Shown here: positions 4,575 to 54,031 of the stretch, one piece after another
Position numbering within the stretch: the stretch's first letter is position 1
How the letters are laid out: each line of letters begins with the position of its first letter
Assembly: GCF_000172155.1 (NCBI RefSeq)
Contig: NZ_ABIZ01000001.1
Span: 7,597,105-7,661,104, forward strand
DNA: 64,000 bases
Reading direction: 5' to 3'
DNA from: Verrucomicrobium spinosum DSM 4136 = JCM 18804
GTDB taxonomy: Bacteria > Verrucomicrobiota > Verrucomicrobiia > Verrucomicrobiales > Verrucomicrobiaceae
Program-made: the position numbers and the translations under genes
The notes under the pieces: model-generated
What the model was told of the DNA's origin: nothing
What the model saw: the letters and a program-made list of their open reading frames with translations, nothing else
Database searches by the model: none

Positions 4575-6212
4575 TTAGCGGCGCAGCATGTCCAGAGGAC
4601 CTGATTTTTCACCCAGGACTTTCCAGACGGGTGCATTCTCTTCAAAGGGAGGTGGATTGTTCATCTTGGGCAACTTCCCGGCGGAGAGCCGAAAAAGCGG
4701 CAACCCATTTTTTTTCTCCTCTTCGATGCACAGGCAGGCAAAGAACTTCCCGCCCGGCTGCTCGCCAATCAGGATGTCTATGTCATACCACTGCCCCTGT
4801 ACCGCTTTGAAAGGGGTCCCCTTGACATAGCCTTTGCGCGGGAAGCCGACGTAGGCACCTTCAGGCTCAATCGATGCCTGGGACAATGATGAAACTGGCT
4901 TCCACGAGGCGTCGAGAACGTGCTTTTTGTCAAAGAACACCACCAGGGTGTCGTCGCCCGCACCCATGAATTGATAGGTTCCCGTCTTGGGCGGCGAAAC
5001 TTTACCCTTGTAGTGAGCCACCCATTGCGATGGCTTGACATGGTCCTCCACCCCGTAGGCTTTGGGTGCCTCCCCAGCGCCCATGTCCGGCATGACAAAT
5101 TGCGTGGCGTAAAGTTTGGTCGGCGCCCTGTAGTACTGGTCCATATCTGACTCCTTTAACCCGCCTTCAACCCAGGCGCGCACAGCGCTGTTATAGAGCT
5201 CAGGACTCATCGTGTGGGGGCGCCCCCCCTTTGTTTGCTTCAAGTCATAGAAAGTGCCCTCCAACCCGCCCCCCCCACGGGCACCAAACATGGTCAGGCC
5301 AAGGCCGCCCGTGCCCAAGCCGCCAACGCCCATGCCGTTGCCGTTGCCGAACCCCAGGCCGGTCCCGAAGCCCGCACCGCCCATGCCGCTCATGCGACCG
5401 GCCACGACCTGGGTGCTGCTCGTGGCCATGGTAGGCATCTCCGGCAGCGTGATGTTGGAGGCCAGGCCCTGCACGGAGATGCGTCTGGCTTGCGCGGGCG
5501 CCCCACCGGCGTTTTTGCGTTTTTGCAGAGAGACTTTGTGCTCCAGCGCCCGCTTGCTGGGGCTCGATGTGGGAGGACCGCTGGAGAACTGCAGCTTGCG
5601 TTTGGCGGCAATCTGCTGAACCACCCAATATCCCGCCCCCAAGCCCAGCACGAGGTGTAAACCAATGCTCACCACCAGAAAGCTTGCAGAGAAGAGCTTT
5701 CGTTTCACCTTCTTGGGCGGGGAGGCAGCCGTGGCAGGTGGGGGCGCATGCCTGGCTGAACTTGACACCACCTGGTCGTGGGACAGCACCGCGGCCGAGC
5801 GCGGCCCGGCTGCGGCCACCGATGGGGGGGGAAGCGATGGCAGGGACGGGGCAGGCAAGAAAACCGGAGGCGCGCTAGCGCCGGACTTCGGCTGTGAAAT
5901 TGACTCCTGAACCCGTATGACCGGGGGGGCAGGCGCATGTACTTTTTCTGCCGCAGGCACCCAGGCAGGCTCGGGGGGCGCTGACTGGAGGGCGGCAATG
6001 GCAGCCAGTGCCTTTTTGCGCAGCCCCAGGGAGGTGACGCCCATTTCACGCAACTCCTCACCAGAAAGGGTTGGCAGCAGGTCCACCGTGATGTCGTTCT
6101 CGATAAACGGGCTCAGCAGTTCATCCAAACCGTGGCTCTCAAGCCATGCCTGGATGTCTGTGGTGGGATCTGTCATGGGCATCGTGAGAAGCTGATCTGT
6201 GGCGTTCTGCAT
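4575..6212 (-). CDS. SAM-domain, single-pass membrane protein with periplasmic PA14-like domain
   Basis: Residues 17-76 form a sterile alpha motif (DIQAWLESHGLDELLSPFIE, then LLPTLSGEELREMGV). A Pro/Ala/Ser-rich cytoplasmic linker follows to about residue 165, then a basic stop and one membrane helix at 173-198. The periplasmic side holds a very Gly-rich stretch (GMGGAGFGTGLGFGNGNGMG) and a C-terminal beta domain with WVAHYKGKVSPPKTGTYQFM and GDDTLVVFFD, as in PA14-type carbohydrate-binding folds. The ATG overlaps the stop of exbD by one base (TAATG). The topology (N-in, one helix, extended linker, periplasmic domain) and position match a TonB or TolA partner of ExbBD, but no TonB C-terminal domain is visible. 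The energy-transducing role is inferred. Confidence 0.75.
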   Translation of the reverse strand: MQNATDQLLTMPMTDPTTDIQAWLESHGLDELLSPFIENDITVDLLPTLSGEELREMGVTSLGLRKKALAAIAALQSAPPEPAWVPAAEKVHAPAPPVIRVQESISQPKSGASAPPVFLPAPSLPSLPPPSVAAAGPRSAAVLSHDQVVSSSARHAPPPATAASPPKKVKRKLFSASFLVVSIGLHLVLGLGAGYWVVQQIAAKRKLQFSSGPPTSSPSKRALEHKVSLQKRKNAGGAPAQARRISVQGLASNITLPEMPTMATSSTQVVAGRMSGMGGAGFGTGLGFGNGNGMGVGGLGTGGLGLTMFGARGGGGLEGTFYDLKQTKGGRPHTMSPELYNSAVRAWVEGGLKESDMDQYYRAPTKLYATQFVMPDMGAGEAPKAYGVEDHVKPSQWVAHYKGKVSPPKTGTYQFMGAGDDTLVVFFDKKHVLDASWKPVSSLSQASIEPEGAYVGFPRKGYVKGTPFKAVQGQWYDIDILIGEQPGGKFFACLCIEEEKKNGLPLFRLSAGKLPKMNNPPPFEENAPVWKVLGEKSGPLDMLRR

Positions 6213-42068: not shown

Positions 42069-43658
42069 TCAACTCCCCCTCCTTCTCAGCCGCACCCACC
42101 GCGTCGGGTCCTCCCGGGTGCCGCCGCCGTACACCTCCACCAGCGGTGCCAGCTCGACCAGGAGCAGATGCAGGGCCTGCTTGCTCAGGTTGCGATGAAA
42201 CAACGCATTCAGCCCGCTCATGCTCAGCGGCCCGTCTTTGAGCGCCGCAAGCACGCGGGCGGCGCGGGGATTGAGCTCCTCTGCGGTGAAGATGAACATC
42301 GCGCTGGCCTCGCAGTAGTCCCACAGCGCCAGTGCCGCCGTGAGGTGATCGTACGCGATCGTTGAGGCCCCGTCCATGAGCGCATAGAGCAGCGCCAGAC
42401 GCATGACCTGTGCCTCGGAACGGGAAAGCACCTCGCCCGCGCGACCTGCGGGCGGCTCGCTGAGTCGCCCGTAGATCTCCCGCCAGAGCCGACGCGCATT
42501 CTCATCCCGCCGCAGCTCGTTGCGCACCCGCGCGGTCCGGATGGCCCGGCGCAGCTCCTGCAAGTGAGCGGTCGTGTCGGGCACCGAGCCGCCCTCCGGC
42601 AGGAGCTTGGACCGGTCCGCATGCACCCAGAGGCAGCGGTTGGCGAGCCCGTTGCTCACCTCCACCCCCGCCAGCAGGCGATGCAGCTCTGCCAGCGTGA
42701 TGTGGCCGATCATGGAGATGTGCGCGTCATCCACCTCCACGCTGTCCTTCCGCCGCAGCACGGCGATGCGCTGCCCGTCCCAGGCCTGCCGCAAGAGGGC
42801 GGAGACGGTGCTGCCCTCCCGCCGTATCACCTGCAGCACCTGGGCAAACTCCCCCTCCAGCAGCAGCAGACGCCGGTCCCCTCCCGGCTCGAACACCTGG
42901 GCGATGCCCTCCCCGGAGACCACGCCGGATTTCACCCGCTTCGCCAGCCAGTCCGCATCCAGATCCTGCAAGACATGCCGCACCTGCTGCCAGGACGTGC
43001 CCTTGCGCGCCTTCGCCGTGCGACCGGTGACAATCGCAAACAGATTCCCCCGATGCCGGGCGCTGTCTGCCACGAAATACGGTGAGGGACCGATGAGATT
43101 ACCCACCCCCGCGAGCAGTTGCACCAGCAACGCCGCCGGGTCCGCCTCTGTACACGGCAGGATGGTGCGCACCAGATCCCCCAAGGGACCATGCAGGGCC
43201 GTCTCCGGGAATTCCGGGCCGGAACGTGCCGTGGGCTGGGCCCCATCAGAAGCGGCTCCCTCTGCGGTGGCACCACAGGCCTCTGCCCCTGCCGGGACCG
43301 CTGCCTCCGCCCCCTGGGGCGAGCCCTCGCGCTTCCCCTTCATGACTGGCCAGGAGGCCGGAGTTCCCGCAAACAACACCTCCTTCTCCAACCCCGGGAC
43401 CGTTCCCGGCCCCGCCCCTGCCCCTGCCCCACGCGATGCGTCGATTTCGTTCTTTTCGTGCATTTCGTACTTCGTTCGCACTCCTCCAGCCGCCAAGCCC
43501 CGCTCCGGCCCCGCCTCCGCCCCATGCGATGCGTCGATTTCGTGCATTTCGTGCATTTCGTACTTCGTTCGCACTCCTCCAGCCGCCAGGCCCCGCTCCT
43601 CCGCCACCTGCCCCTGCTCCAGTTCTTCCTGCCCTGTTGTCTCGTGTTGTTGTTTCAT
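42069..43658 (-). CDS. DUF3987 helicase-like protein
   Basis: The protein of about 529 residues is recognisable as DUF3987, a family found with primases in plasmids, phages and integrated elements. The body has PLGDLVRTILPCTEADPAAL, FAIVTGRTAKARKGTSWQQV (a P-loop-like TAKARKGT), LLLLEGEFAQVLQVIRREGS and MIGHITLAELHRLLAGVEVS. The first about 130 residues are low-complexity and contain a tandem peptide repeat (RGLAAGGVRTKYEMHE twice). The ATG at 43658 is preferred, because the frame beyond it translates a repeat-rich spacer. It follows the primase-like gene on the same strand. I infer a replication or maintenance module for the island. Confidence 0.75.
   Translation of the reverse strand: MKQQHETTGQEELEQGQVAEERGLAAGGVRTKYEMHEMHEIDASHGAEAGPERGLAAGGVRTKYEMHEKNEIDASRGAGAGAGPGTVPGLEKEVLFAGTPASWPVMKGKREGSPQGAEAAVPAGAEACGATAEGAASDGAQPTARSGPEFPETALHGPLGDLVRTILPCTEADPAALLVQLLAGVGNLIGPSPYFVADSARHRGNLFAIVTGRTAKARKGTSWQQVRHVLQDLDADWLAKRVKSGVVSGEGIAQVFEPGGDRRLLLLEGEFAQVLQVIRREGSTVSALLRQAWDGQRIAVLRRKDSVEVDDAHISMIGHITLAELHRLLAGVEVSNGLANRCLWVHADRSKLLPEGGSVPDTTAHLQELRRAIRTARVRNELRRDENARRLWREIYGRLSEPPAGRAGEVLSRSEAQVMRLALLYALMDGASTIAYDHLTAALALWDYCEASAMFIFTAEELNPRAARVLAALKDGPLSMSGLNALFHRNLSKQALHLLLVELAPLVEVYGGGTREDPTRWVRLRRRGS
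43431..43599. repeat. Two 77-bp direct repeats inside the DUF3987 gene
   Basis: Copies at 43431-43506 and 43523-43599 are almost identical and keep the reading frame (spacing 92-93 bp). They encode two KYEMHE...IDAS segments. Each contains the ACGAAATGCACGAAATCGAC-type short repeat that also occurs in non-coding DNA at 48.5, 48.9 and 50.6 kb, so coding and intergenic copies of one repeat family exist. Confidence 0.85.
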
Positions 43659-45019: not shown

Positions 45020-45575
45020 TTGAATCGTTTGTTGGAAATCGGACGCGTTGATACGCGAGTTACCAGTGCGTCAGTGCGTCAGTGCGTCAGTGCGTCAGTG
45101 CGTCAGTGGGCAGTGGGCAGTGGGCAGTGGGCAGTGCGTCAAGGCTTTGGGGCCGAAGCTGTACGGAGTACAGGCTTCAGCCTGCGCGGATCACAGAAGA
45201 CGCCCAAGCCAAGCGGTGCCTGTAGCGCAGATTGGCAATCGGCATCAGTCGCCGGAGAGGGCCCAGGCTTGTGGGTTCTAAGACATCAGCAGGGCGTTGT
45301 GAGGACCTTGAGACCGCAAAAGGTCCGCGCCGGGGTTGGAGTACCGCTTTTAAGCGGAATCACTCCGCGGGCGTCCCATGACGTCGCGATCCGCCCCAAC
45401 ACTCAACCACCCCGGGCTGTAGGGCAACCCCGACTACCCCAGACCCCCAACCCCTCCCGGGCCTCCCGCCCAAGCGCCAGCTCAGGTCTGATGTCTGATG
45501 TCTGATGTCTGGCAGTCTGGCAGTCTGGCGTCTCCTGCGAAGCAGGCGCAGCTCAGGTCTTGAGTCTTGTGTCTT
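45020..45575. repeat. Repeat-only region between primase and the 317-residue gene
   Basis: No gene is seen in these 556 bp. Five copies of CAGTGCGT (45064-45103) run into four copies of CAGTGGG (45104-45131). Then a 64-bp block (45132-45195), also found at 50701-50765, follows with small hairpins such as CAGGCTTCAGCCTG. At 45345-45360 there is another hairpin (ACCGCTTTTAAGCGG). From 45474 two stem-loop arms made of GTCTGAT/GTCTGGC units run to about 45622, into the end of the next gene. Confidence 0.85.
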
Positions 45576-46529
45576 CTAGTCTTGTGCCTGCCCGCGCAGC
45601 GGGCTGGCAGTCTGGTGTCTTGTTCGAGCGTTCCTCCACGCCGTCAGAAACGCGGGGAACCCCACGGGTGCCTGCCCCATGAGGTGGGCAGCCTGGGTGA
45701 GGCGATGGTACGCCGTCTCACCATTGGCCGGGCATTCCCAGAGCCGCAGGGGCAGCCAGAGGCGGAGCAGCCAATCTGACGTGCTGCGCTGGTAGCGCTC
45801 TGGCTTGCGCAGGGCCTGCTCCAGCTCCCGCCCCAGATCGATCGCGAACTGCACCCGCCCGGCCTCATGCCGCGCCTGGATGTCGCTGGCGTAGTAGGCC
45901 AGCACGTTCTCTGGCGGGAACCCATCGCGCAACCGCTCCCGCACCCGGTGCAGCAGCCGCTTGTCCATCGCCTTCTCCGCATTCCCCTCCCGCGCCGCCG
46001 CCCGGGCAGAGCGCCCCACCTGTGAGACCACCTGGCACTCACGGAGGGTCAGCCGGTGCACATGCTGCACCAGCCCCGCCAGCGACGTTGCAGAAGAAGC
46101 AGCGGCACCCGCATCATCCTCAGCCGGGCACCAGCAATACCCCGCCACATACCGGGGCCAGGGCTCCCGTCCTCCTCCACCCTCTCCGCGTGCCAGCCGC
46201 TCCAGCACCAGCCCATCCAGCATCTCGCAATCCGCCAGCCCCTGCTGCAGCCGCGCCCGCGCCACGGCCAGCACCCACGGGGCTGCGAGCCCAAGCTCCC
46301 TGCTCCGCCCTTTCTCTTCCTCCCGGCAGAGCCGCCGCAACCGCCACACGATCTGCGCCATCCGCCCCCGCACCTCCCGCATCTCTCGCTGGCTCTCCCT
46401 CTCGCTTTCGGCGACTCCCGTCCGCTGGCCATCCCCCACGACCCAAGGCCACGGCAAGATCCACGCCCCGCTCTCCGACCGGATCCGGGTCGTAGCAGGG
46501 GCCGTAGCAGAGAGAGACGCAGTGGCCAT
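45576..46529 (-). CDS. Hypothetical protein, C-terminus formed by repeat DNA
   Basis: The 317-residue protein is not recognised. It is helical and charged: residues about 40-110 are Arg/Glu-rich (ESQREMREVRGRMAQIVWRL), the middle has LQQGLADCEMLDGLVLERLA, and the C-terminal half has RLTLRECQVVSQVGRSARAA and WLLRLWLPLRLWECPANGET. The last residues, RTRHQTASPLRGQAQD, and the TAG stop come from a copy of the dispersed repeat arm. It lies upstream of the primase on the same strand, across 0.6 kb of repeats, and may belong to the same replication module. Confidence 0.6.
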   Translation of the reverse strand: MATASLSATAPATTRIRSESGAWILPWPWVVGDGQRTGVAESERESQREMREVRGRMAQIVWRLRRLCREEEKGRSRELGLAAPWVLAVARARLQQGLADCEMLDGLVLERLARGEGGGGREPWPRYVAGYCWCPAEDDAGAAASSATSLAGLVQHVHRLTLRECQVVSQVGRSARAAAREGNAEKAMDKRLLHRVRERLRDGFPPENVLAYYASDIQARHEAGRVQFAIDLGRELEQALRKPERYQRSTSDWLLRLWLPLRLWECPANGETAYHRLTQAAHLMGQAPVGFPAFLTAWRNARTRHQTASPLRGQAQD

Positions 46530-48509: not shown

Positions 48510-48587
48510 TAGATAATTGACAGGGCTGAATCGCGAGGCGCAAAAATCCAAGAGCACAAAAAGTACGAAAAGAGCGAAATCGAGGCC

Positions 48588-48824
48588 AGGCGGGAGACAG
48601 AAGACTGCCAGACACCAGACGCCAGACTTGAGTTCTCGCAAAGGAGCCCCGGCCCGCCGGAGCGCTCATTGGGGAGCGCATGCATCCTGCGTGCTGTTCG
48701 CGGCATCTTGCCGCGAACGTCGTTCGCTTGTTCCTGATACCCAATTCCCCCTGGGTCTCGCCCCAAGCGCCAGCTCAAGTCTGATGTCTGGTGTCTTCTA
48801 GTCTGGCGTCTCCCGCGCAGCGGG
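48588..48824. repeat. Stem-loop repeat unit 1
   Basis: The left arm (48588-48650, from GGCGGGAGACAGAAGACTGCC to CTTGAGTTCTCGC) is the imperfect reverse complement of the right arm (48768-48824, GCGCCAGCTCAAGTCTGATG to TCTCCCGC). The loop of about 118 bp contains a perfect 10-bp hairpin, GTTCGCGGCA-TCT-TGCCGCGAAC, and a GCATGCATCCTGCGTGC element. Similar loop sequence recurs at 50775-50850. Confidence 0.8.
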
Positions 48825-48917
48825 TTCTGCCAAGCAAAACCGCCCTTTTACCCCCCTCCAAAACCCCGAAAGTCATAACACCCTCATCCTCAACACTGAT
48901 AAATACTCCGTACGAAG
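48734..48917. repeat. 184-bp direct repeat, copy 1 (copy 2 at 50436-50620)
   Basis: The segment from CTGATACCCAATTCCCCC to ACTCCGTACGAAG recurs about 1.7 kb away, mostly identical; differences cluster in the GTCTGAT/GTCTGGT unit array. It starts in the loop of stem-loop unit 1, includes its right arm and ends in the ACGAA short repeat. The pair flanks the DUF1016 gene. Confidence 0.85.
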
Positions 48918-48959
48918 TACGAAAAGAACGAAATGCACGAAATCGACGAACCGAGGCCT

Positions 48960-49224
48960 GGCGGGAGACAACAGACTGACCGCTGTGCGGGAGACAGAAG
49001 ACTGCCAAATCAGATACCAGACACCAGACTTGAGCTCCCGCATTCGGTTCCACGATCAACGGAGGGCTCAGTAGAAAGGAGGCGGGGGTTCCTAGCCCCG
49101 CTCAGTCGAACGACCCCTGACGCTGCGATCTGCCTCAACACCCAATCGCCCCAAGGCCTCCTGCCCAGGCGCAGCTCAAGTCTGATGCCTTGTGTCGTCT
49201 AGTCTGGCGTCTCCTGCGCAGCGG
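48960..49224. repeat. Stem-loop repeat unit 2
   Basis: The left arm (48960-49040) contains GCGGGAGAC twice and AGACACCAGACTTGAGCTCC. The right arm (49169-49224) reads GCGCAGCTCAAGTCTGATGC to GTCTGGCGTCTCCTGCG. The intervening about 128 bp differ from unit 1 but include GGAGGCGGGGGTTCCTAGCCC. The right arm supplies the stop codon TAG of the DUF1016 gene at 49199. Confidence 0.8.
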
Positions 49225-50240
49225 ACAGGCTTTCGTCAATCACCGCCCGCTCCCGGTCCAGTTCCCGGCGCAGATCCTCCTCCGAGGGCAGCACCAGGCG
49301 GTATTTGCTGGCAAACAACTGCTCGCTTTCGTGCAGCACGGAATACCGCACCACCGACTGATCCTTGCTCCCGCAGAGCAGGATGCCTACCGTGGGATTG
49401 TCGCCCTCACCCCGGCGCAGATCATCATAGAGCCGGACATACATGTCCATCTGGCCGATGTCCTGATGGGGCCAGGTGCCCGGTCTTCAGGTCGATCAGC
49501 ACGAAGCACTTGAGCAGGTAGTTGTAGAACACCAGATCGATGTAAAAATCCTGCGTCTCCGTACTGACCCGCTGCTGGCGGGCCACAAAGGCAAAGCCCC
49601 TGCCCAGTTCCAGCAGGAATTGTTGCAGCTTGTCCATGAGCGCGCTCTCCAGATCCGCCTCCAGTAGCCGCCCCGCCTCTGGCAGGCCCAGGAATTCCAG
49701 CATCACCGGGTCGCGCACGAAATCCCGGGCCGTTGGCACGGCAGGCGACGTGACTTCCACCGGCAGCGCCTTGTTCTGGCTGGAAAGCAGACGTTCGTAG
49801 GACAAGCTGCCGATCTGCCGTTCCAGCAGCCGGTAGTGGGTCCAACTCAATTCAGGACGCAGTGCGTCTAAAATTGGAAAGGAAAGGTAGAACTGCTTCA
49901 TCTTGTGAAGATTGGACGCATCAAAGCCACGCCCAAACTCCTCCGTCAGCTTCTCAGCCAGCCGTGGCAGCAATCTAGCCCCATACTCCGCCCGCGCTTC
50001 TCCCCCCTGCTCATACTCCACGATGTGCCTGCCGATCTCCCAATAGGTCCGCACCTGGGCAGCGTGGGCCGTGCTCAGCACCTTCTGACGCGCCTGTAGG
50101 ATCAGTTCTCGCAAAGCAGCCAGCAACGGAGGAACCGCTGGCGGGAGACAGAAGACTGCCAGACACCAGACGCCAGACCTGAGTTCCCGCAAAGGTAGCC
50201 CCCGCCCGCCGGATCGGTCAGTAAAAGGAGCGAGGGACAT
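49199..50240 (-). pseudogene. DUF1016 (YhcG-type) PDDEXK nuclease, frameshifted, ends in repeats
   Basis: The body from about 50129 on matches DUF1016 proteins: LLAALRELILQARQKVLSTA, GARLLPRLAEKLTEEFGRGF, HYRLLERQIG, and the nuclease part FYIDLVFYNYLLKCFVLIDL with the KTG motif. At 49468-49471 a run of four G (CCCC in the gene) shifts the frame. The expected continuation QDIGQMDMYVRLYDDLRRGE is in another frame that runs to 49199. One base less would restore one protein. The N-terminal extension translates stem-loop repeat DNA (RSGVWCLAVFCLPP), and the stop and last four residues (ETPD) also come from a repeat arm. The start at 50240 is uncertain. Confidence 0.75.
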
Positions 50241-50361
50241 TCCTGTCCCGGTTCGTGCCAAACGTCCCATGACAAAGCAATACCCCCGGCCCTTCCGCCC
50301 CACGCGCCAGCTCAGGTCTTGCGTCTTGTGTCTTCTAGTCTGGCGTCTCCCGCGCAGCGGG
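50139..50361. repeat. Stem-loop repeat unit 3
   Basis: The left arm (50139-50190) is nearly identical to that of unit 1 (GGCGGGAGACAGAAGACTGC...). The right arm is at 50304-50361 (CGCGCCAGCTCAGGTCTTGC to CTCCCGCGCAGCGGG). The about 115-bp loop differs from the other units but shares GCCCGCCGGA with unit 1. The left arm lies at the 5' end of the DUF1016 gene and is translated if the upstream start is used. A further right arm without a partner lies at 50469-50526. Confidence 0.8.
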
Positions 50362-50435
50362 CCCTGACCCAGCCCATCCCCAAAGCCAAGCAAAGCCGCC
50401 CTTTCCATGCCATGAACCAGGCCCCCCCCCTGCCC

Positions 50436-50620
50436 CTGATACCCAATTCCCCCTGGGTCTCGCCCCAAGCGCCAGCTCAAGTCTGATGTCTTGTGTCTGG
50501 CAGTCTGGCGTCTCCCGCGCAGCGGGCTCTGCCAAGCAAAACCGCCCTTTTGCCCCCCCTCCAAAACCCCGAAAGTCATAACACCCTCATCCTCAACACT
50601 GATAAATACTCCGTACGAAG
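50436..50620. repeat. 185-bp direct repeat, copy 2
   Basis: This is the second copy of the 48734-48917 segment. It is followed by ACGAAATGCACG and then a run of GAATTGAAC-type 9-bp units (50633-50663) where copy 1 has ACGAAATGCACGAAATCGACG. The downstream short repeat therefore differs in unit while the adjoining 185 bp is conserved. Confidence 0.85.
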
Positions 50621-50700
50621 AACGAAATGCACGAATTGAACGAATTGAACGAATTGAACGAATTGGGGCCCGGAGGCCAGTGCGTCAGTACGTCAGTGGC

Positions 50701-50765
50701 CAGTGCGTCAAGGCGTTGGCCCCGAAGCGGTACGGAGTCCAGGCACCAGCCTGCGCGAGTCACAT
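50701..50765. repeat. Dispersed 64-bp block, copy 2 (copy 1 at 45132-45195)
   Basis: CAGTGCGTCAAGGC, then a TTGG..CCGAAGC core, TACGGAGT and CAGCCTGCGCG match the 45-kb copy with few substitutions, and both are preceded by CAGTGCGT/CAGTACGT units. The region 50775-50850 downstream repeats the loop of stem-loop unit 1 (GGAGCGCTCATTGGGGA, GCATCCTGCGTGCTGTTCGC). No gene is visible between 50620 and the hsdM start. Confidence 0.8.
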
Positions 50766-50963
50766 CACCCCCCAACGGAGCGCTCATTGGGGATCGCACG
50801 CATCCTGCGTGCTGTTCGCGGCATCCTGCCGCGAATGCCGTTCTCTCTACCCCGGACGCCCATTTCTCCCTGGGCAACCTTGATTTGAACACCCATCCTA
50901 TCGTACTAAGTTCATGAAACAGAGGGCTTGAGAATAACCTGCTGCTGCGGCTTGGTGGGGCTG

Positions 50964-52727
50964 ATGCCTGATCACCACGACCTCGCCAATCTCGTCTGGC
51001 AAATCGCCGACCTGCTGCGTGGCCCCTACACGCCTCCTCAGTACGAACGCGTTATGCTGCCCATGACGGTGCTGCGCCGGTTCGACTGCGTCCTTGCCCG
51101 CACCAAAGCAAAGGTTTTGGCTGAGCACTCCCGCCGCAAGGACGGCAAGGTGCAGGGGGACGGCTTGGACCAACTGCTGAACAAGGCCGCCGGACAGCGC
51201 TTCCACAACCGTTCCCCGCTCGACTTCGACAAGCTCAAGGGTGACTCTGACAATATCGAGAAACATCTTGTGAGCTATATCAAGGGCTTCTCCGCCAACG
51301 TTCGCACCATCTTCGACTACTTCGAGTTTGAGAAGGAGATCGAGAAGATGCGGGAGTCCAATCTTCTCTACCTCATTGTCTCCAAGTTCAGCGAAGTGGA
51401 CCTCGACCCCGTAAGGGTGCGCAGTGAGGAGATGGGGCTCATCTTTGAGAACCTCATCCGCCGCTTCTACGAGCAAGCCAACGAGACGGCTGGAGACCAC
51501 TTCACCCCGCGGGAGGTCATCCGGCTCATGGCCGGGCTGCTCTTCATCAATGACGATGACCTGCTCAGCACCCCAGGTGCCGTGCGAAAGCTGCTGGACC
51601 CTGCCTGCGGCACCGGCGGCATGCTGGCAGAGGCGCAGAACTACATGCGCGAGCACCACGCCGCCGCCCAGCTCTACACCTACGGGCAGGACTACAACAA
51701 GCGCGCCTTCGCCACCGCCGCCTCAGAGATGCTCATCAAGGAGGTGGCTCACAATGGCAGCGGGGACAACGTACGCTTTGGCGACATCTTCACCGACGAC
51801 CGCTTCAAAGACGAGACCTTCGACTACGTCATCGCCAACCCGCCCTTCGGCGTGGACTGGAAGAAACAACAGCGGGAGGTCGTACGCGAACACGACAGCG
51901 GCAAGGGCCGCTTCAACGCCGGGCTGCCACGGGTGAATGACGGCAGCCTGCTCTTCGTGCAGCACATGATCAGCAAGTTCGAGCCCGTCCTGCCCCATCT
52001 GGAGAAGCACGGCTCCCGCATGGCCGTCGTCCTCAGCGGCTCTCCGCTTTTCACCGGCGGCGCGGGCAGCGGCGAGAGCGAGATCCGCAAATGGATCATT
52101 GAGAGTGACTGGCTGGAGGCCATCATCGCCCTCCCGGAGCAGATGTTTTACAACACCGGCATCGGCACCTACATCTGGCTCCTCACCAACCGGAAGGAGA
52201 AGCGCCGCAAAGGCAAGATCCGGCTCGTGGACGCACGTAGTTTCTGGAAACCCGGCGGTTCCGAGGAGAACCGCCGCAGCCTGGGCGACAAACGGCGGCA
52301 TATCAGCGCCGCGCAAATCGAACAAATCCTGAAACTCTACGACCACCGTCAGGACGGTGAACACAGCAAGACCTTTGACAACGCGGACTTCGGCTACACG
52401 CGCGTCACCGTGGAGCGCCCCTTGCAAGACGAGGCTGGCGTCATTCAGAAAGACAAGCACGGCAAACCCAAGCCCGACGCCAAGCTCCGCGACTTTGAGA
52501 ACATCCCGCTCAAGGAAGACATCAACGCCTACTTCAAGCGCGAAGTGCTGCCTCACGTCCCAGACGCCTGGATGGACCGCAGCAAAGACAAGGTGGGATA
52601 CGAGATCAACTTCAACCGCCACTTCTACAAGTTCACCCCACCGCGTGACCTCGCGGAGATCGATGCGGAGATTGAGATCGCGGAGAAGGAGTTCATGAGG
52701 TTGTTCAAGGAGGTGACCCTACAATGA
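50964..52727 (+). CDS. hsdM: Type I restriction-modification DNA methyltransferase subunit HsdM
   Basis: The 587-residue protein has the N-terminal HsdM helical domain (IADLLRGPYTPPQYERVMLP, MTVLRRFDCVLA). The methyltransferase core shows motif I-like LDPACGTGGMLAEAQNYMRE and the N6-adenine motif IV NPPF (DYVIANPPFGVDWKKQQREV). The C-terminal half has the usual FYNTGIGTYIWLLTNRKEKR. I chose the ATG at 50964 over a TTG at 50928. It overlaps hsdS by 4 bp (ATGA). With HsdS it modifies adenine in the recognition site and protects host DNA. Confidence 0.95.
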   Translation: MPDHHDLANLVWQIADLLRGPYTPPQYERVMLPMTVLRRFDCVLARTKAKVLAEHSRRKDGKVQGDGLDQLLNKAAGQRFHNRSPLDFDKLKGDSDNIEKHLVSYIKGFSANVRTIFDYFEFEKEIEKMRESNLLYLIVSKFSEVDLDPVRVRSEEMGLIFENLIRRFYEQANETAGDHFTPREVIRLMAGLLFINDDDLLSTPGAVRKLLDPACGTGGMLAEAQNYMREHHAAAQLYTYGQDYNKRAFATAASEMLIKEVAHNGSGDNVRFGDIFTDDRFKDETFDYVIANPPFGVDWKKQQREVVREHDSGKGRFNAGLPRVNDGSLLFVQHMISKFEPVLPHLEKHGSRMAVVLSGSPLFTGGAGSGESEIRKWIIESDWLEAIIALPEQMFYNTGIGTYIWLLTNRKEKRRKGKIRLVDARSFWKPGGSEENRRSLGDKRRHISAAQIEQILKLYDHRQDGEHSKTFDNADFGYTRVTVERPLQDEAGVIQKDKHGKPKPDAKLRDFENIPLKEDINAYFKREVLPHVPDAWMDRSKDKVGYEINFNRHFYKFTPPRDLAEIDAEIEIAEKEFMRLFKEVTLQ

Positions 52728-54031
52728 ACAAGAAGCCAACTAGTTCGAAAGTGCTCAATGGGTCTTATTCACCAGCGAATACATGGAATGCAGCTCCACT
52801 TAAACGTTGGACGACATCCATCCAAACTGGGCCTTTTGGAAGCCAACTACACCACGAGGACTATCTGCGCGGTGGCCACCCCGTCATCAATCCATCGCAT
52901 TTGATCAACGGCTACATCAATCCGGATGATGAATGCGCCGTGTCCAAAGAGAAATTCGAAGAACTTATCCGACATGAACTGCTCGAAGGCGATATGGTGT
53001 TTGCAAGGCGAGGCGAACTCGGGCGCTGTGGATTGGTGACACATTCACAACACGGCTTTCTCTGCGGCACTGGCAGTATAAGAGTACGCCCTGATCGCGG
53101 GAGTTTGCAGCCAACATATTTGCGCTGGTTCATGCAGACCAAGGCCGTCGCGGAATGGCTTTCGCTTGAGTCGGTTGGAACCACCATGGATAACCTTGGT
53201 GCCGAAACTGTCGCAGAACTGCCAATTCAAGCCCCTTCACCACCACGTCAGCACTCCATCGCCACCTACCTAGACCGTGAGACGAAGCGGATAGATGAGT
53301 TGGTCAGCGTCAAAGAAAGACTTCTGGAGCTGGTCGCAGAGAAACGACGGGCCCTCATCACCCGAGCCGTCACTCGCGGACTTAACCCCAAGGCCGCACT
53401 GCGCGACTCCGGCATCCCGTGGCTTGGGGCCATCCCGGAACATTGGCAAGTGGAACGTTCCAAATGGCTCTTCACAGAGCGCGACGAACGATCCTCAACA
53501 GGCGAGGAGGAAATGCTCACGGTTTCCCATCTCACTGGGGTCACCCCAAGGGCAGAGAAGGATGTGAATATGTTTGAGGCAGAAACCACCGAAGGCTACA
53601 AACTCTGTCAACCCAATGACCTGGTCATCAACACGCTCTGGGCTTGGATGGGTGCCATGGGAACTGCACGAGCACCTGGCATGGTCAGCCCAGCCTACCA
53701 TGTCTACACTCCAGGCGATCGACTAGACTCTGACTATGTGGATGCTCTGGTCCGTATACCCATTTTTGCACAAGAGGCGATCCGATTCTCCAAAGGCGTA
53801 TGGTCCTCACGGCTTCGGCTGTATCCGGAAGGTCTCTATGAAATCTGGTTCCCGGTTCCCCCACTAGAAGAACAACGCGCCATCGTCACCCACATCGCCA
53901 GGGAAACTGCCAAACTCGATGCCCTGCGCGCCAGTGCGGAGCGAACCATCGCCCTGCTGAAGGAGCGCCGCGCCGCCCTCATCTCCGCCGCGGTGACGGG
54001 GAAGATTGCCATTCCTGACTCCATCGACTAA
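52724..54031 (+). CDS. hsdS: Type I restriction-modification specificity subunit HsdS
   Basis: The 435-residue protein has two target-recognition domains, each followed by a long helix. The first TRD spans about residues 20-180, ending in APSPPRQHSIATYLDRETKR. The second spans about 225-395 and ends with PPLEEQRAIVTHIARETAKL. The central helix is KERLLELVAEKRRALITRAV, and WLGAIPEHWQVERSKWLF opens the second TRD. A bipartite recognition sequence is expected; which bases are read cannot be told from the sequence. It is followed 12 bp later by the AAA ATPase gene. Confidence 0.93.
   Translation: MNKKPTSSKVLNGSYSPANTWNAAPLKRWTTSIQTGPFGSQLHHEDYLRGGHPVINPSHLINGYINPDDECAVSKEKFEELIRHELLEGDMVFARRGELGRCGLVTHSQHGFLCGTGSIRVRPDRGSLQPTYLRWFMQTKAVAEWLSLESVGTTMDNLGAETVAELPIQAPSPPRQHSIATYLDRETKRIDELVSVKERLLELVAEKRRALITRAVTRGLNPKAALRDSGIPWLGAIPEHWQVERSKWLFTERDERSSTGEEEMLTVSHLTGVTPRAEKDVNMFEAETTEGYKLCQPNDLVINTLWAWMGAMGTARAPGMVSPAYHVYTPGDRLDSDYVDALVRIPIFAQEAIRFSKGVWSSRLRLYPEGLYEIWFPVPPLEEQRAIVTHIARETAKLDALRASAERTIALLKERRAALISAAVTGKIAIPDSID

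Follow-up and report, generated by a model that had tools for sequence, protein, structure and literature searches.

The repeats at this locus of Verrucomicrobium spinosum raise the question of whether their arms belong to long stem-loops or to a shorter unit that occurs in both orientations. The stretch of DNA analysed, here called the window, comprises 64,000 nt (positions 7597105-7661104 of a single 8,220,857-base contig), and an earlier note had described in it three long stem-loops built from 7-bp units. Here we report that the repeating unit is one directional element of about 52 nt, the AGAC element, and not a stem-loop. With about even confidence, we regard it as a non-coding dispersed repeat of Verrucomicrobium that resembles repetitive extragenic palindromes (REPs), lands at the 3' ends of genes and may act as a transcribed 3' element.

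Each unit begins with a GC hairpin, mostly CCCGC-NNN-GCGGG, which is followed by about five AGAC cores spaced 7-8 nt apart and a terminal AGAC[CT]TGA. The copies were collected from the 8.2-Mb genome with the strict pattern GGGAGACNNNAGACN{3,4}AGAC, which gave 95 matches (43 forward, 52 reverse) vs 0 for a reversed control; three of the 95 are second starts inside one array, and merging yields 92 arrays, or 66 loci if matches less than 2 kb apart are joined. Alignment of the strict matches by reading resulted in the consensus order CCCGCTKCGCGGG (5-bp stem, 3-nt loop), AGACNNN, AGACTNNA, AGACNNN, AGACNNN, AGAC[CT]TGA. The number of cores ranges from 3 to 8 and is exactly five in 63 matches; the second unit is 8 nt long in 82, and its spacer begins with T in 76 of those 82. 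By a simple rule, 70 matches have a perfect 5-bp stem at their foot, and several stem variants have retained their pairing, namely CCCGCC/GGCGGG (with a TTCG loop), CCCGGC/GCCGGG, CCCCGC/GCGGGG and CCGCC/GGCGG.

The hairpin shows covariation. Alignment A1 consists of 84 rows out of 94 copies, which were found by an AGAC pattern that also requires the 8-nt second unit. In these 84 aligned copies, 91% of the stem cells are paired; 11 cells are changed on both sides vs 1.9 (standard deviation 1.3) in shuffles, and none of 500 shuffles reaches that number. The composition of the tail is 46% A, 26% C, 23% G and 5% T, and single-sequence folds of the 94 pattern-picked copies predict it to be about 75% unpaired, with the expected hairpin formed in 62. 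No terminal inverted repeats were seen by eye within the element. A search of the window and of loci L132, L124 and L093 against Rfam yielded one RNase P RNA and two tRNAs, and no match at the gathering score over any element.

Inverted pairs are present at all three places where the long stem-loops had been described, and over 50 nt the complementarity of the arms is 78% both for 48590-48639 with 48767-48816 and for 50141-50190 with 50304-50353. The arms are nevertheless two inverted copies of the directional element, and the compensatory changes that should link them were not found: in five +- pairs, the complementarity of partner arms was 0.786, vs 0.791 in 20 non-partner comparisons. Nothing therefore keeps paired arms complementary, and the long stem fails as a unit. 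Covariation of paired bases is instead a property of the small hairpin found at each arm's outer end. The three loops are unlike each other, and among neighbouring strict matches within 700 bp there are five +- pairs (hairpins outward), one -+ pair and nineteen tandem pairs. A long stem-loop that serves as a structured RNA or a recombination hairpin thus has the complementarity of its arms in its favour, and is scarcely credible in view of the non-partner comparison, the differing loops and the few inverted pairs. As in bacterial interspersed mosaic elements (BIMEs), the stem-loops of the window are inverted AGAC pairs. Within the window, a covariance model of the element (R1) identified nine copies, with E values between 6.7e-19 and 1.5e-9, and five of these were rows of the model's own alignment. 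These copies, and a hairpin of a different family, are as follows:

45496-45548, minus strand: AGAC copy, one of a tandem pair (R1 46.6 bits, E 6.4e-11)
45553-45605, minus strand: AGAC copy, the other of the tandem pair (R1 64.2 bits, E 1.2e-15)
48584-48631, plus strand: AGAC copy, left arm of the first 'stem-loop', with a decayed 5' arm of the hairpin (GAGGCCAGGCGGG) (R1 51.2 bits, model row)
48696-48718, no strand assigned: small perfect hairpin in the first loop, from a separate dispersed repeat family and not an AGAC element
48775-48826, minus strand: AGAC copy, right arm of the first 'stem-loop', with the intact hairpin CCCGCTGCGCGGG (R1 72.2 bits, model row)
48977-49033, plus strand: AGAC copy, left arm of the second 'stem-loop', with a partial extra copy before it at 48949-48978 (R1 41.6 bits)
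49176-49227, minus strand: AGAC copy, right arm of the second 'stem-loop' (R1 48.7 bits)
50132-50182, plus strand: AGAC copy, left arm of the third 'stem-loop' (R1 54.9 bits, model row)
50312-50363, minus strand: AGAC copy, right arm of the third 'stem-loop', with an intact hairpin (R1 76.2 bits, model row)
50477-50528, minus strand: AGAC copy standing alone, with an intact hairpin (R1 70.4 bits, model row)

Other details of the earlier description stood in part. The arms do consist of AGAC heptads, but the second unit usually has 8 nt and not 7 (82 of the 95 strict matches); both extra right arms exist (45474-45622 and 50469-50526), but the former is two tandem copies. The perfect hairpins ascribed to the loops were found in one of the three loops only (GTTCGCGGCA-TCT-TGCCGCGAAC at 48696-48718). 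A near copy of this hairpin is located at 50814, outside the loops, and it was rejected as a part of the AGAC element, since all 17 loci looked at had no strict AGAC match within 1.5 kb. The right arms at 48775-48826 and 50477-50528 are contained in a duplicated block (48733-48867 / 50435-50569, 93% identical) and are therefore not independent copies.

The position of the copies relative to genes differs from that of random points. In 22 of the 95 matches, a same-strand open reading frame (ORF) with 100 codons or more has its stop codon 0-6 nt ahead of the hairpin, a strong excess over the 99 of 5000 random points (2%); a slightly different rule gives 23 matches. The distance is exactly 2 nt at 11 of these 22 sites, and the stop codons are TGA (13) and TAG (9). 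In the congeners, a stop 0-6 nt before the hairpin was found at 17 of 58 sites. Beyond the tail, 4 of 95 matches have a convergent stop no more than 20 nt away, a distance for which there was no random control. A T-run just before the hairpin is present in 10 of 95 matches vs 230 of 5000 random points, and a T-run together with a stem in the 60 nt upstream in 4 of 95 vs 15 of 5000; in three of these four (154490, 1403641, 6214786) the stem directly precedes the T-run. One copy lies behind an RNA gene: at locus L132, the RNase P RNA match (RF00010, 5041-5470, minus strand) is followed by an element at 4988-5039 (minus strand) that starts 1 nt behind its end, and an element is found at the aligned place in both congeners. 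No terminator-like site was detected on the strand of this gene in the 1.2 kb scanned. Outside the genus, 13 arrays at 9 loci were read with an ORF threshold of at least 60 codons and no random control; four (L146 minus, L147 plus, L151, L225 plus) begin -1 to 7 nt after a stop, one (L343 plus) follows a T-run, and the remaining arrays do neither within that distance. Most of these arrays have no hairpin evident to the eye; L199 has one, and L146 plus may have one.

Empty sites at orthologous loci, which the earlier note had suggested looking for, were found in the congeners, and the pattern of presence and absence fits a mobile or recombining element. For 24 of 59 congener sites, the V. spinosum genome has a strict match in the aligned position; flank alignments of at least 355 nt support 22 of these, which fall on 18 V. 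spinosum copies, and the other two (L227, L237) depend on short flanks of 118 and 104 nt that lie in repeats. The other 35 comprise one loose copy, one element seen on reading (L213/8113915), nine sites with none and 24 without a flank in the part of the V. spinosum genome compared, and several of the sites scored as lacking the element map to repeats. The window sites 7647455 and 7647620 are empty in BvORR106, on weaker flanks (79% over 292 nt and 76% over 345 nt). At 1571241, the downstream neighbourhood also differs, so that gains can accompany rearrangement. At 5833123, where V. spinosum has an AGAC element, both congeners carry a CAGTG-type array right behind the same stop.

Where copies are shared, their parts have changed to different extents. 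In 24 ortholog pairs each, 3 of 120 positions differ in the 5' stem arm, 4 of 120 in the 3' arm and 11 of 72 in the loop, and in the 11 pairs with equal layout the spacers differ at 18 of 149 positions. The layout was scored as unequal by script in 14 of 25 parsed pairs, three of which are a parsing artefact of AGACCTGAGAC and two a changed core, which leaves nine pairs with a different number of units; 8 of 33 site pairs were unparsed, with no element read at the mapped place, and one hairpin among the 25 was unread. Few changed cores were seen by eye (AGAA in L152, AAAC in 2616825 and 5890417, AGAT in L217). In these shared copies, the stem is kept while loop and spacers drift, and the AGAC cores seem to be kept too.

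Further copies in the genome and in its relatives, which the long stem-loop proposal had anticipated, were confirmed both by the strict pattern and by the covariance model. Strict matches occur in 6 of 96 genomes including V. spinosum itself (95 matches), with 88 in G001, 75 in G003, two each in G008 and G065, and one in G009; the two matches of G065 overlap and have the look of a simple array. The covariance model was applied to 38 genomes, with about 150 candidates scored per genome, which makes the copy numbers lower bounds: at least 150 in V. spinosum and, among its congeners, at least 151 in G001 and at least 146 in G003. Six of the 35 other relatives also gave matches (27 in G009, 9 in G008, 6 in G006, 5 in G013, 4 in G012 and 1 in G002, a 76% complete genome of the same genus), and 29 of the 38 genomes gave none. 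A pattern scan across 84,980 species genomes yielded at least 120 stretches, and 80 loci were listed and worked with. Among the loci listed, 37 belong to BvORR034 and BvORR106, and two from Verrucomicrobiota groups (L199, L225) read like the element; most of the other 41 were rejected as simple (GGGAGAC)n-like arrays, and a few are heptad arrays in unrelated bacteria that have AGAC cores and more varied spacers (L215 in Dialister, L264 in Balneolaceae, and L223, L214 and L233). In V. spinosum, a tandem block of 484-491 bp is present three times at 1382419-1383461 (L086), and each block has two AGAC elements with differing hairpins.

The suggestion that the repeat is a non-autonomous mobile element is plausible insofar as sites have been gained or lost, but no mobilising enzyme was found. 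The V. spinosum genome contains 39 stretches that match Y1 transposases, one of which is bracketed by strict AGAC matches. The bracketed gene encodes a REP-associated tyrosine transposase (RAYT) of 148 aa (PF01797, 86.1 bits) and stands between inverted AGAC composites both in V. spinosum and in BvORR034. At its right flank, V. spinosum has a 16-nt sequence twice, with 214 bp from one start to the next; the same sequence is single in BvORR106, where it is part of a palindrome. The BvORR106 flank is an empty site of a composite, and the difference may be due to an insertion with target duplication or to recombination between repeats. Y1 relatives of the bracketed RAYT are present in 47 of 57 genomes, V. 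spinosum included. Four more small Y1 genes (L087, L088, L089, L090) are each flanked on both sides by their own different palindromes (by eye), as expected of REP-RAYT loci.

The window contains other repeats and genes next to the AGAC copies. An ORF at 49199-49450 (minus strand) runs into the copy at 49176-49227 and stops on the TAG of its second unit (...SAAQETPD*). The same region (49199-50579, minus strand) holds a gene for a YhcG/DUF1016 PDDEXK nuclease that is apparently split by a frame change near 49425-49450, with its parts on two overlapping ORFs, and type I restriction-modification genes (50928-54031, plus strand; HsdM and HsdS domains, Pfam) adjoin the repeat cluster. A second array family (45064-45141 and 50678-50764) has CAGTGCGT/CAGTGGG units and, behind them, a GTACGGAGT...CAGCCTGCGCG palindrome; it is this array type that the two congeners carry behind the stop codon at 5833123. 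A third family (48907-48946, 50619-50667 and 43537-43561) is composed of 9-nt units around ACGAA (GAACGAATT, ATTTCGTGC). Small perfect hairpins (GTTCGCGGCATCTTGCCGCGAAC and its neighbours) are contained in a dispersed repeat at 48653-48728 and 50771-50846, which is 92-98% identical over 51-53 nt to many places in the genome.

If the AGAC element is a REP-like repeat with a role in transcripts, its copies may have been inserted or duplicated at the 3' ends of genes, possibly by an enzyme acting in trans, and the arrays could grow or shrink through heptad slippage. Many copies would then be the first piece of transcript behind the stop codon, and the hairpin with its U-poor tail, read as RNA, might contribute to the protection or processing of mRNA 3' ends. 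A role at the RNA level would lead to a stem, and probably AGAC cores, that are kept while loop and spacers drift; it is thus the position of the copies and the different rates of change in stem and spacers that suggest a 3'-end RNA function. A more specific version, which we consider improbable, is a lineage-specific mark of gene 3' ends: a Verrucomicrobium protein that binds RNA or single-stranded DNA would recognise the AGAC cores at their 7-8 nt spacing behind the hairpin, guide new copies to gene 3' ends and set or protect the 3' ends of transcripts, such as that of RNase P RNA.

Several results weigh against a REP-like element with a function at gene ends. By the simple rule for the foot stem, 25 of the 95 strict matches lack a perfect 5-bp stem, and a sliding control shifted by -2 likewise gives 21 cells, with 70% paired, since the register of the stem varies among copies. 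Most matches (73 of 95) are not located 0-6 nt behind the stop of a long ORF, and the excess of plain T-runs before the hairpin is small. Three stop-adjacent V. spinosum sites are empty in both congeners (6 of 6; about 160 nt behind the stop were read), with the gene flank found in both and ending at or just behind the stop; these sites were chosen from stop-adjacent ones not already seen occupied, a choice that leans to empty sites. The conservation of the cores is partly built in, since AGAC is a requirement of both the parser and the patterns used for collection. The RAYT was rejected as a dedicated partner, since the syntenic gene of BvORR106 is 97% identical and has no AGAC copies around it. 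Among the genomes covered by both searches, 23 of 32 with a Y1 relative lack the AGAC element, and the presence of Y1 therefore does not predict the element; comparison of the Y1 relatives and of the RAYT locus across genomes tied no dedicated transposase to it.

The same results can be read as those of a purely selfish REP-like mobile repeat, for which gene 3' ends are merely a tolerated or preferred landing place and whose apparent conservation stems from fresh copies of few sources. The gain and loss of copies between congeners, their inclusion in tandem and segmental duplications (1382018-1383461; 48733/50435) and the 214-bp insertion between 16-nt direct repeats at the RAYT right flank, single in BvORR106, are all in line with it, and REPs elsewhere are also reported near gene 3' ends in the accessible parts of one study (PMC3733652). 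We consider this possible, but doubtful, because 22 congener sites at 18 V. spinosum copies are shared, with the stem kept and loop and spacers drifting, and because no mobilising gene was found. Slippage of a heptad microsatellite, with an incidental hairpin, would explain the different unit numbers in 9 of 25 ortholog pairs, the runs of one spacer (7001561) and the (GGGAGAC)n-like arrays in bacteria of other phyla. That slippage alone made and maintains the AGACNNN arrays is very unlikely, however, in view of the exactly five cores in 63 of 95 matches, the 8-nt second unit in 82 of 95 and its T-start in 76 of 82; orientation and a perfect foot stem (70 of 95) recur at unrelated places, which slippage alone cannot yield.

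A transcription terminator of its own kind, acting behind genes by loading of Rho or by a hairpin pause, would agree with the place of copies right after stop codons and after RNase P RNA, a gene with no terminator-like site on its strand in the 1.2 kb scanned, and with a tail that has 5% T and is predicted to be about 75% unpaired. We nevertheless regard it as unlikely: AGAC, and no T-run, comes after the hairpin, C is not clearly in excess of G in the tail, and at least three AGAC copies follow an intrinsic terminator. Published descriptors of rut sites, in the part of the paper accessible to us, are YC dimers 9-13 nt apart (PMC9160355); judged by these, the cores of the AGAC element are too close (7-8 nt), and several spacers contain no YC. 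The form of an intrinsic terminator was likewise not found, as the stem is followed by AGAC (which the collecting pattern imposes) and by a tail with 5% T.

Among known repeats, the AGAC element is closest in form to the tagged REPs. As far as the accessible parts of one study go (PMC3733652), REPs with GTAG and CGTC tags were located in two species mostly within 20 bp of an ORF 3' end when the flanking ORFs converge, O. terrae (Verrucomicrobia) is highly enriched in GTAG repeats, and CGTC REPs reportedly also occur without a dedicated transposase. The AGAC element shares with these REPs and BIMEs the short GC hairpin, the high copy number, the location near ORF 3' ends, the inverted pairs and one RAYT-adjacent locus; a high-copy short hairpin and a location at gene 3' ends are features by which REPs are recognised. 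It differs from the tagged REPs described there in its foot, which on the GTCT strand consists of about five GTCT 7-8 nt apart instead of one tetranucleotide, in a stem of only 5-6 bp and in the lack of a constant RAYT partner. The statement that it is not a named REP family held as far as the GTAG and CGTC tags were tested: inspection of the 95 matches by eye, without statistics, revealed neither tag at the foot (CGTC appears only where the first spacer supplies the C) and no GTAG consensus ahead of it. Classes of TnpA-REP whose feet are different have been described (PMC6006769, accessible in part). Like RAYT/TnpA-REP loci (PF01797), V. spinosum has one Y1 gene between inverted AGAC composites; unlike at such loci, the near-identical gene of BvORR106 (97%) has no AGAC copies nearby. 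With regard to the target site duplications of miniature inverted-repeat transposable elements, one composite insertion has 16-nt direct repeats; these are part of a palindrome, and recombination is equally possible. The titles and abstract beginnings listed by searches of the open-licence literature contained no description of the AGAC element or of such a Verrucomicrobium repeat, and no open-licence paper was found that links Verrucomicrobium with repetitive extragenic palindromes.

The tail has its counterparts among heptameric repeats. GGGAATC of Xanthomonas and GGGGA(C/T)T of Nostoc are found near stop codons on the sense strand (PMC4692102, accessible in part). Like these simple sequence repeats, the AGAC element has tandem 7-nt units near stop codons, but its spacers are degenerate and one unit is mostly 8 nt; the Xanthomonas and Nostoc heptamers are G-rich and, as far as that source goes, were studied as quadruplex formers, whereas AGAC units have no such G-tracts and start with a covarying hairpin. 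The TAACTGA direct repeats of Beggiatoaceae are heptamers upstream of start codons and a proposed binding site of a post-transcriptional regulator (PMC4679880, accessible in part). They share with the AGAC element the dispersed sets of short heptamers (two to six copies) at gene borders and differ in their fixed heptamer and their place before start codons; their abstract mentions no hairpin. The AGAC element thus joins two kinds of repeats that are usually separate, the hairpin REPs and the heptameric repeats behind stop codons. Its kept part (the stem and probably the AGAC cores) and its free part (loop and spacers) can be compared across three related genomes, and single copies behind genes such as rnpB make a role of gene-end repeats in transcripts directly testable.

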